From: Gammaproteobacteria bacterium
Lineage (GTDB): Bacteria > Pseudomonadota > Gammaproteobacteria > Steroidobacterales > Rariloculaceae
Length of the DNA stretch: 40,651 nucleotides
Direction: 5' to 3'
Assembly (NCBI GenBank): GCA_003155415.1
Contig: PMCP01000086.1
Span: 1 to 40,651 of the forward strand
Part shown: one piece after another, positions 143 to 3,944 of the stretch
Position numbering within the stretch: the first letter of the stretch is position 1
How the letters are laid out: every line of letters starts with the position of its first letter
Made by a program: the position numbers and the translations under genes
Notes under the pieces: model-generated
Databases searched by the model: none
What the model saw: only the letters and a program-made list of their open reading frames with translations
Told to the model about the DNA's origin: nothing

Positions 143-1738
143 ATGAAGAGGTCCCGAGGCGCGGCCACGTCTGCGCAAACGGCGGCCGCTGCAGCAGCGA
201 CCGGCACCAGGCTCTCGGCCGGTGGCGCCTTTGCCGTCAACGCCTGCTTCACCGCCGGCTTGCTCGTGCTCAGCCAACTCCCCCTGCTGGAGCAGCGTCT
301 CGCGGTGCGCGCCTCCCTCGTCGCCGCCGCGCTGTTCCTGCTCGCGTGGAGCGGACTGCTGTTCGGCGTTCTGCGCCGTGGGCAGAACGTGACGCTCGAA
401 ATCGTGCTGCGCCGCCAGCACTACCTGCAAGCCTGTCTGCAAGGCATGCTGGCCCTGTATTGGGGCTACTACTGGCGCGAGGTCTATCACGCCGCGCCGC
501 TCATTGCCGCGCAGCTCCTGTTTGCCTACGGCTTCGACAGCCTGCTTTCCTGGACGCACCGCCGGAAGTTCGCTCTGGGCTTCGGCTCGTTTCCGATCGT
601 CTTCAGCATCACGCTGTTTTTCTGGTTCAAGGATCCGTTCTTCTACTGGCAGTTCGTGATGGTCGCGATCGGGCTCGCCGCCAAGGAATTTCTGCGCTGG
701 AAACGCGACGGCGTGAACACCCATATCTTCAACCCGTCGTCGTTTCCTCTGGCGGTCGTGGCGGCGGTGCTACTGATTGCCGACGCGAGCGACATGACCT
801 GGGGCTTCATGGTCGCGCAGACCGAATTCTATCCGCCGCATATTTACCTCGCGATCTTCCTCATCGCGCTACCGGGGCAATTCCTGTTCGGCGTCACGCC
901 GATGACGTTGGCTGCCGTGACGACGACGTTTGCTTTCAGCGCGATCTACCACGCCGCCACCGGCAGCTATTTCTTCGTCGATGCGCACGTGCCCATCGCA
1001 GTGTTCCTCGGTATGAACTTGCTGTTCACCGATCCCGCAACGGCGCCGCGCACGCTGGTGGGGCGCCTCTTTTTCGGTGTGCTCTACGGGCTCACGGCGG
1101 TGCTCTTGTACGAATGGTTGCTGAGCGCGAACACCCCGGGCTTCTACGACAAGCTGCTTCAGGTGCCGTTGCTGAACCTCTCCGTCAAATGGCTCGATCG
1201 ACTGGCGAAGTCGCCCATGCTGAAGGCATTGGATCCGTCGGTGTGGGGCAGGGCGCTGATGCCGCGCAGCCGTCATCTGGCCTATATGAGCGTGTGGGGC
1301 ATCGCGTTCGCCGCGATGAGCGCGTCCGGGCATCTCGGCGACGAGCATCCCGGGCAATGGACGCCGTTCTGGGCGAAGGCCTGCGAAGCCGAGAAGCGTG
1401 ACGCCTGCCTGAACCTCTATTTCCTGCAGGACGGCTTCTGCACGGACGGCTCGCCATGGGCATGCAACGAGGCCGGCATCGTGCTGGCCGAGCACTACGG
1501 CAATCGTGTCCGCGCCGCCGCAGCGTTCGAGCGGGCGTGCACGCTGCAATTCTCCGCCGGCTGCGCCAACGCGGCTGCCCTCGCAAAGGCTGGCATGTTG
1601 CGGCATGACACGCCTACCTACGTGGACTACCAGTTCATTCTGCGCGGCAGTAAGGGCCCGCTACGGGATCGCGAGCCCGCCGAACTGTACGCACGCGCTT
1701 GTGAGCTAGGGTGGCCGGGCACCTGCGGAAGCCGTTGA
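143..1738 (+). CDS. RnfD/NqrB-like membrane protein with C-terminal Sel1-like, cysteine-paired domain
   Basis: This 531-residue protein has about nine hydrophobic segments from residue 30 to 330. The motifs HIFNPSSF (194-201) and LFTDPATAP (294-302) match conserved loops of the RnfD/NqrB family of flavin-linked ion-translocating electron-transport subunits. The SGAT flavin-attachment motif of classical RnfD/NqrB is not seen, so a covalent FMN is not supported. After a further hydrophobic segment near 378-392, the last 120 residues carry four cysteine pairs, each spaced C-X7-C (414/422, 433/441, 466/474, 520/528). That is the pattern of disulfide-stapled Sel1-like repeats in Hcp-type proteins. 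I infer an extracytoplasmic C-terminal domain on a membrane redox-type core. Other Rnf subunits are not in the window. The membrane-domain family is fairly sure; the function is unknown. Confidence 0.75.
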   Translation: MKRSRGAATSAQTAAAAAATGTRLSAGGAFAVNACFTAGLLVLSQLPLLEQRLAVRASLVAAALFLLAWSGLLFGVLRRGQNVTLEIVLRRQHYLQACLQGMLALYWGYYWREVYHAAPLIAAQLLFAYGFDSLLSWTHRRKFALGFGSFPIVFSITLFFWFKDPFFYWQFVMVAIGLAAKEFLRWKRDGVNTHIFNPSSFPLAVVAAVLLIADASDMTWGFMVAQTEFYPPHIYLAIFLIALPGQFLFGVTPMTLAAVTTTFAFSAIYHAATGSYFFVDAHVPIAVFLGMNLLFTDPATAPRTLVGRLFFGVLYGLTAVLLYEWLLSANTPGFYDKLLQVPLLNLSVKWLDRLAKSPMLKALDPSVWGRALMPRSRHLAYMSVWGIAFAAMSASGHLGDEHPGQWTPFWAKACEAEKRDACLNLYFLQDGFCTDGSPWACNEAGIVLAEHYGNRVRAAAAFERACTLQFSAGCANAAALAKAGMLRHDTPTYVDYQFILRGSKGPLRDREPAELYARACELGWPGTCGSR

Positions 1739-3143: not shown

Positions 3144-3182
3144 CAACGATTGAGCTCTGAACGTCAACGAAGGGGAAGAGTC

Positions 3183-3944
3183 ATGTCAATGTCATCCGTT
3201 CTCGTCCGCCACTCGGTGGCTGCTGCTTTGCTGCTGCTCGCCGGTGCTGCGTTCGCGCAGGCGCCCGCGCAGGCGCCCGCGCAGGATGCGCCGAAGAACC
3301 TAAAGGTGCTGCCGAAAGATTGGACGCGCCCGCAGGTTATCAACGTAATGCAGAATTTCACGGCCGCGCTCGGCGTCGGCTGCGAGTACTGCCACGTGGA
3401 GAAGGAAGGCGCGCCGCCGGACTTCGCGTCCGACGATAAGAAGGAAAAGGATCGCGCGCGCGCGATGATGAAGATCGCCACGGACCTGAATGCGGCTCTT
3501 CCGACGGCTCTCGGTGAACCCGCGGATCAGCTCACGCGCGTGGGTTGCATCACGTGCCACCGCGGTGTGCCGGAGCCGAAGCAGATCGGCGAGATCCTGT
3601 CGAAGACGTCGAAGGACAAGGGCTTCGCTGCCGCGTCGTCGCAGTACACCGAGCTCAAGACGAAGTACTACGGCGCTCAAGCGTACGACTTCAGCGAGCA
3701 GGGCTTGATCGCGACGGCGCGTCCGCTGATTGCGCAGAACCGCCAAGACGAAGCGATCCAGTTCCTGCAGTTGAACCTGACGCTGTTCCCGAAGTCGGCC
3801 GCGAGCTACGTCACGATCGCGCAGGCGCAGCAAGGCAAGAAAGACAATGCCGCTGCGATCGAGAGCCTGCAGAAGGCGCTCGCGATCGACCCGAAGAATG
3901 CGCAAGCGACTCGCATGCTGGGTCAGCTGCAGCCGAAGAAGTAG
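3183..3944 (+). CDS. Diheme c-type cytochrome, reaction-centre cytochrome-subunit-like, with TPR tail
   Basis: The protein is 253 residues. The ATG at 3183 follows AGGGGAAGAG and opens a signal peptide cleaved near residue 25. Two heme sites are visible, CEYCH (67-71) and CITCH (122-126). Each is preceded by a helix with methionine (Met56 before LGVGCEYCH; Met95/96 before the second), the arrangement of the photosynthetic reaction-centre cytochrome c subunit family, where Met is the distal ligand. That subunit normally has four hemes, whereas this protein has two. Residues about 165-250 form TPR-like helices (for example AIESLQKALAIDPKN). No photosynthesis genes are near. A periplasmic electron carrier is the safest reading; its partners are unknown. 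The ccm operon 3.3 kb downstream would supply heme attachment. Confidence 0.82.
   Translation: MSMSSVLVRHSVAAALLLLAGAAFAQAPAQAPAQDAPKNLKVLPKDWTRPQVINVMQNFTAALGVGCEYCHVEKEGAPPDFASDDKKEKDRARAMMKIATDLNAALPTALGEPADQLTRVGCITCHRGVPEPKQIGEILSKTSKDKGFAAASSQYTELKTKYYGAQAYDFSEQGLIATARPLIAQNRQDEAIQFLQLNLTLFPKSAASYVTIAQAQQGKKDNAAAIESLQKALAIDPKNAQATRMLGQLQPKK
3255..3284 (+). repeat. 12-bp tandem repeat in the cytochrome gene
   Basis: Two and a half copies of GCGCAGGCGCCC encode a QAPAQAPAQ linker directly after the predicted signal-peptide cleavage site. The copy number could vary between strains by slippage without changing frame. Confidence 0.7.

Follow-up and report, generated by a model that had tools for sequence, protein, structure and literature searches.

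RnfD/NqrB-fold membrane proteins with a fused Hcp-type Sel1-like tail: a conserved and apparently undescribed domain architecture

Among described proteins, the closest to the one considered here are RnfD and NqrB (PF03116). UnbU of enediyne clusters is a free-standing RnfD-like membrane protein outside Rnf, and COA7, a human cytochrome c oxidase assembly factor, is reported to combine heme binding with disulfide reductase activity. Excerpts of published work place both termini of RnfD in the cytoplasm (PMC9588780) and list Thr162, Asn200, Asn203 and Asp346 as the riboflavin contacts of NqrB (PMC9325719). NqrB/RnfD-like proteins that lack the conserved threonine and yet retain an apparent non-covalent flavin site have a precedent in excerpts of PMC10979944, which also describe an Nqr/Rnf-like fusion of PF03116 with a cytosolic NAD-binding domain (PF00175). 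On the side of the repeat proteins, the tethering of consecutive repeats by disulfides is given, in the relevant part of PMC3851747, as particular to the Hcp family.

The window, by which we mean the whole 40,651-nucleotide stretch of DNA analysed here, opens with the first base of C46, a contig of its genome, and the first gene on that contig encodes a protein in which an RnfD/NqrB-type core and an Hcp-type tail are joined. Its features, with window coordinates, are as follows.

143..1738, plus strand: whole gene, ATG start and open frame, 531 aa, encoding an RnfD/NqrB-fold membrane protein with an Hcp-type Sel1-like tail (both assignments from profiles and models)
218..373, plus strand: two added N-terminal helices, aa 26-77 (26-44 and 53-77), as modelled; the RnfD match starts at residue 88
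404..1228, plus strand: RnfD/NqrB-fold core, aa 88-362 (structural Z 21.0 and 19.6; profile E 2.6e-5)
605..607, plus strand: S155, at the position of NqrB Thr162, a riboflavin contact (alignment; 67/67 rows)
722..736, plus strand: H194-I-F-N197-P198, aligned with NqrB Asn200 to Pro204, including the contacts Asn200 and Asn203 (H194 and N197 in 67/67 rows)
779..841, plus strand: shortened linker between the core halves, aa 213-233, without the FMN-threonine loop and holding the near-invariant T219
1028..1048, plus strand: T-D297-P-x-T-x-P, with D297 at the position of NqrB Asp346 (alignment; 67/67 rows)
1142..1168, plus strand: family signature F-Y-D-K-L-L-x-V-P, aa 334-342 (invariant alignment columns)
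1262..1324, plus strand: extra helix following the core, aa 374-394, predicted to span the membrane (model; basic before, acidic after)
1325..1735, plus strand: Hcp-type Sel1-like tail, aa 395-531 (HcpC profile match, E 6.9e-22; models)
1382..1408, plus strand: C414-x7-C422 (pattern, model, conservation)
1439..1465, plus strand: C433-x7-C441 (pattern, model, conservation)
1538..1564, plus strand: C466-x7-C474 (pattern, model, conservation)
1700..1726, plus strand: C520-x7-C528 (pattern, model; C520 kept in 66/67 rows)

An AlphaFold model built from a 67-row alignment (pLDDT 91.4, pTM 0.89) features the 10-helix RnfD/NqrB fold in its core. With a structural aligner, model residues 88-362 superpose on RnfD (8rbq_D) at Z 21.0 and an rmsd of 3.0 A over 249 residues, and the core matches NqrB (7xk3_B) at Z 19.6, the RnfD/NqrB matches spanning 249-254 residues; in a Foldseek search of the PDB the best 13 core matches were all NqrB/RnfD chains, with probabilities of 0.98-1.00 and no E below 0.001. 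As NqrB and RnfD are the top structural matches, the core, as modelled, is an RnfD/NqrB-fold domain, and the membrane core of this type proposed in an earlier note on this DNA is thus upheld by a clear fold comparison. A match to 8a22 (mL120) was dismissed as chance (E 0.69). The same note had looked to PF03116 for a match over residues 90-325; here the fold and the relatives agree, three of the latter exceeding the gathering cut-off of 27.7 bits (30.9, 30.7 and 27.9 bits), whereas the window protein by itself matches weakly and below the cut-off (E 0.0013, 18.6 bits, residues 256-325 only). Furthermore, a profile of four homologous cores retrieved Azotobacter RnfD from the PDB (E 0.0037), and profile-profile comparison with RnfD proteins of related genomes (30 loci, 25 of them used and five not parsable) gave E 2.6e-5, carried by the T-D-P region; in the extended profile alignment, H-I-F-N-P pairs with N-x-F-N-P of RnfD.

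Excerpts of PMC12174285 describe ammonium and urea transporters as relatives of RnfD/NqrB in both structure and evolution, and by the structural aligner Rh/Amt proteins (Z 13.5) and urea transporters (Z 9.9) do superpose on the core as members of the same overall fold class. A solute or ion channel or transporter, with a core that conducts a small solute or ion and a Sel1-like arm that recruits a binding protein, nevertheless seems doubtful to us, since the core matches RnfD/NqrB with much higher scores (Z 19-21) and carries invariant motifs of RnfD/NqrB type (H/N-x-F-N-P and T-D-P). To our knowledge, Amt/Rh and urea transporters do not carry the F-N-P and T-D-P motifs.

NqrB positions were mapped onto the family through an RnfD-type protein (L150), whose T89, N127, N130 and D279 fall on Thr162, Asn200, Asn203 and Asp346. 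Compared in this alignment with the NqrB contacts, N197 and D297 are identical, S155 is a conservative change, and H194, in place of Asn200, is changed to an invariant histidine. With three of the four kept or conservatively changed, the riboflavin-contact positions appear largely retained. The Asp and Asn near riboflavin have also been proposed for Na+ binding in RnfD, according to excerpts of PMC9588780, so that conservation of these positions is no proof of a flavin.

The other flavin position of the fold fares differently. The RnfD loop D-x-x-T-x-A-T-P-L finds no counterpart in the profile alignment with the window family, and the motif Asn and the Asp are 100 residues apart in 72 of the 80 homologues (106 in one, seven not scorable) versus 161 in 20 of 25 RnfD proteins (135, 149, 158, 163 and 66 in the remaining five, the last likely a miscount), which makes the linker about 60 residues shorter than that carrying the covalent-FMN threonine in RnfD/NqrB. 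Judged by alignment and spacing, the linker bearing the covalent FMN is lost in the family protein, in line with the earlier observation that the flavin-threonine motif is absent. The short linker does hold a threonine, T219, found in 66/67 rows (Ser in the other) and 22 residues past the F-N-P asparagine, and one could picture a full Rnf-like conduit with FMN attached covalently at this non-canonical residue; we regard this as improbable, given that the D-x-x-T-x-A-T loop is absent, that profile alignment puts the T-W-G stretch elsewhere, and that Asp217 is not conserved (33/67).

The 531-residue protein contains ten cysteines (35, 98, 414, 422, 433, 441, 466, 474, 520 and 528), and its C-x7-C matches are 414/422, 433/441, 466/474 and 520/528 with no others, exactly the four equally spaced pairs first noticed in this gene. 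Tail cysteines are identical in 66-67 of the 67 aligned rows. Chance was rejected as the source of the spacing on account of this conservation and of shuffling, which gave four or more C-x7-C in 29 of 200,000 permutations of the 137-residue tail with its eight cysteines; the presence of exactly four in 67 of 80 homologues points to inheritance by descent.

A profile of 64 tails matched HcpC (E 6.9e-22), then HcpB (2.7e-9), followed by human COA7, LpnE and other Sel1 proteins. Modelled alone, the tail reached a pLDDT of 90.3 with HcpB as its best Foldseek match (E 0.015, probability 1.00); similarity in the structural aligner was modest (c5321 at Z 8.0, HcpC at Z 6.6, tail residues 1-89), at levels that helical repeats generally may reach. 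The Pfam Sel1 family does not match the window protein and scores above gathering in two of three relatives. By profile and model, then, the tail is an Hcp-type Sel1-like solenoid, as had been proposed. The predicted cysteine pairing agrees with the helical hairpins asked for in the earlier note: in both models the first three pairs span the turn from one helix into its successor, and the fourth occupies the stretch from the last helix to the C-terminus. The window tail thus resembles Helicobacter HcpB and HcpC in the C-x7-C linkage of consecutive repeats and differs in having just three clear repeats, with a fourth pair that has diverged, and in being tethered to a membrane protein, HcpB and HcpC being secreted solenoids without a membrane core. 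COA7 shares the Sel1-like repeats (profile E 3.1e-6 to 7mqz) and, unlike the window protein, is a soluble mitochondrial protein that likewise lacks a membrane core.

The model adds two helices before the core and one after it, and the mean charges over 67 rows are distributed accordingly: the segments expected inside are basic (residues 78-90, KR 3.9 and DE 1.1; 353-373, KR 3.8 and DE 1.1) and the segment expected outside is not (395-412, KR 1.3 and DE 1.7). Helix count and charge distribution together predict a periplasmic tail, and we conclude that it probably lies outside the inner membrane, held by four predicted disulfides.

A scan of our contig collection with the single protein returned no match, and a 4-row core alignment was required to recover the family; the core-profile scan then yielded 259 relatives, of which the best 80 were kept. 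These 80 come from Acidobacteriota, Gemmatimonadota, Gammaproteobacteria and Planctomycetota records, with a few labelled Acidimicrobiia or unclassified. Of C-x7-C pairs they carry four (67 proteins), three (4), six (1), seven (1), one (2) or none (5), and those with none or one are L092, which ends at a contig edge, L088, which contains a masked run, the three TPR-tailed proteins described below and two planctomycete proteins whose Sel1-like tails are poor in cysteines. Alignment A5 omits 14 of the 80 loci (truncation at a contig end, a masked run, a TPR tail, or an unusual tail or start), alignment A6 further omits L124, L086 and L094, and the tree omits L088 and L092. Several genomes hold more than one copy, with five in G1219 (including L189, L193 and L194) and three in G1139 (L184, L185 and L187).

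Three homologues (L103:5818-8142, L115:5767-7680 and L119:5821-7764), which cluster in the tree (88/96), carry the same core with a canonical, cysteine-free TPR array where the others have the Sel1-like tail, and the genomes of L115 and L119 also hold a Sel1-tailed paralogue. Such a swap is what a docking module would predict, and the tail resembles known interaction modules (HcpC, COA7, LpnE); both observations would suit a periplasmic assembly or scaffold factor in which the solenoid does the work and a degenerate RnfD-like core merely anchors it. We consider this unlikely, because the core is the more conserved part and ten of its polar residues (H93, Q96, Q124, K181, H194, N197, D280, D297, D336 and K337) are identical in 67/67 rows, more than simple anchoring would require. 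Two genome searches showed no member without a tail: all 17 distinct matches sit in frames of at least 512 aa (the core and added helices account for about 395 aa, our yardstick for such a member).

Around the window the family is sparse. The 196 related genomes searched, the window's own included, contain one other carrier, and 3 of 396 genomes of the order, again with its own, carry a homologue. In samples of the class and the phylum, a homologue was counted only if its match spans the core, and a few short RnfD-motif matches (model positions about 264-363) were dropped. Among the matches listed, core-spanning ones were confined to the window's own genome and G639 in the class sample (369 genomes) and to its own in the phylum sample (398 genomes); with full-length alignments, matches to the Sel1 tail only predominate in these searches and extend to at least 205 of 369 and at least 215 of 398 genomes. 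In the phylum of L070, 6 of 119 genomes hold the family at E 1e-20. A tblastn search of plasmids for the family gave no match.

We next to these counts set the question of independence from Rnf. A PF03116 search of 13 carrier genomes at E 0.01 left seven (G115, G1138, G1139, G1140, G1141, G1249 and G1258) with no match beyond the family members; some of the 13 may be incomplete, G115 being 98% complete. The absence of any other RnfD/NqrB in these seven argues that the family protein is not an Rnf subunit there. The other six hold a separate, strong RnfD/NqrB. The window genome itself has a separate RnfD on contig C185, whose match (L067 and L068; G000:C185:5077-5951) is split over two stretches, possibly through a frameshift or an assembly error. 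No rnf or nqr gene was found among ten scanned genes at each of two relatives, and neither rnf/nqr families nor a flavinylated FMN_bind or ApbE occur among the 25 most frequent neighbour families of either set (72 and 65 families in all).

The scanned neighbours revealed no partner gene common to the whole family. A PF03781 (FGE-sulfatase) domain is found in 17 of 73 scanned downstream genes, whose starts range from 88 bases ahead of the core gene's end to 16 bases beyond it, so that the two genes often overlap. The loci concerned (L131:7461-8420 and 16 others among L127-L149) belong to one sub-clade of the tree. The product read as an example carries a hydrophobic stretch at its N-terminus, and the consensus shows no conserved cysteines after its RGGS motif, which we take to be the position of the catalytic cysteine pair of formylglycine-generating enzyme. 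A secreted-looking P-D-x-x-G-x-W family lies near 47 of 80 loci, including L073:7049-8053, 16 times in divergent orientation at the adjoining position, and two representatives gave no NCBIfam match. In the window, the gene is followed by a 192-aa ORF on the minus strand (1794-2372) with a signal-peptide-like start, repeated Gln/Arg/Glu-rich blocks and no Pfam match, then by a SnoaL-like gene and, at 3150-3944, by a probably secreted protein that combines a photosynthetic-reaction-centre-type cytochrome c domain (CytoC_RC) with TPR repeats. An UnbU/UnbV-like enediyne pair was considered and set aside, as ASPIC/UnbV is absent from 20 scanned neighbours of two relatives and from the 25 commonest neighbour families of the 80 loci; the difference from UnbU lies in these ASPIC-free scanned neighbourhoods. 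Literature searches for UnbU with UnbV and for enediyne with RnfD membrane protein returned no matching description.

Overall, the window protein is like RnfD/NqrB in its fold, its H/N-x-F-N-P and T-D-P motifs and three of four contact positions kept or conservatively changed, and unlike them in lacking the FMN-threonine loop, in its shorter linker, in the helices added at both ends, in the fused periplasmic-type solenoid, in the absence of rnf/nqr from scanned neighbourhoods and in its occurrence without another PF03116 protein. With the Nqr/Rnf-like fusion of PMC10979944, as excerpted, it shares a core without the flavinylation threonine and with what may be a non-covalent flavin site; its C-terminus, in contrast, is the Hcp-type solenoid, the domain search found no PF00175, and no NqrC/RnfG-like partner was seen for the window family. 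The earlier judgement that the fusion is no standard Rnf architecture stands. The homologue survey corrects the impression of a lone oddity: the fusion is conserved in several phyla. The three added helices and the largely retained riboflavin-contact positions are further points on which the present analysis amends the earlier note. Its conservation across phyla, often in genomes without another such pump subunit, indicates that these proteins are probably a separate, uncharacterised membrane protein family. Literature searches found no description of RnfD with Sel1, those for RnfD with tetratricopeptide returned, by title, only work on Treponema pallidum, and excerpts of PMC8238504 and PMC10979944 make no mention of Sel1 alongside flavinylated NqrB/RnfD; the conserved domain architecture is thus apparently undescribed.

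The position of the gene invites the question of its origin. The window protein falls in an Acidobacteriota-rich clade (split 100/98), apart from the three homologues of its own order and class, on a long branch (1.1) that leaves its exact place in the tree unsure. This grouping, the place of the gene at the start of the contig and the single other carrier among 196 genomes (own included) could reflect misassembly or contamination from another bacterium. Such an artefact is hardly credible to us: the contig appears native by its CcmF, which reaches 65-70% identity with same-family genomes (excepting a fragment at 53% and one genome that gave no match) and no more than 36% with the four genomes behind L070, L073, L098 and L102; the GC content of the gene (64.4%) is close to that of the window (63.0%) and gives no hint of origin; and a best identity of 58% to any homologue, together with the long branch, does not suit a recent stray fragment. 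The family itself stands regardless. These comparisons fit an old horizontal transfer best. At another locus (L003:2-1321, in the relative G315) the contig breaks inside the gene, and the window contig breaks just upstream of it, which may be coincidence.

We favor, at a probability of roughly 45%, a stand-alone NqrB-fold membrane protein with a single flavin, acting outside any Rnf/Nqr complex and equipped with a periplasmic docking arm. Its core would bind a single flavin non-covalently, close to the cytoplasmic face, and exchange electrons with membrane quinone, as NqrB does. The added helices, two N-terminal and one after the core, would place the tail in the periplasm, where four disulfides could form and give a rigid arm for docking; a periplasmic partner bound to it would be kept against the membrane core, which may reduce, oxidise or sense that partner. 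For one sub-clade, a candidate partner is the membrane-anchored FGE-like protein whose gene lies directly downstream. Against the single-flavin proposal stands the replacement of NqrB Asn200 by His, and with no FMN on the periplasmic side, electrons given up by a partner there would face a long path to the riboflavin site. Somewhat unlikely, in our estimate, is the more specific idea of a one-protein derivative of the NQR/RNF core, in which a single non-covalent riboflavin would link the quinone pool, in either direction, to periplasmic proteins held on a disulfide-stapled or TPR arm, possibly with Na+ or H+ coupling.

How RNF and NQR couple flavin redox chemistry to ion movement, and what NqrB or RnfD can do alone, is still disputed. 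The family offers a natural experiment on both points, as the same fold occurs with riboflavin positions largely kept, the covalent FMN site gone, no partner subunits and a predicted periplasmic arm. If the one-protein derivative were true, its hosts would often be bacteria without an Rnf or Nqr complex; and if the fold holds riboflavin alone, Acidobacteriota, Gemmatimonadota and Gammaproteobacteria would possess in these proteins a novel type of periplasmic electron gate.
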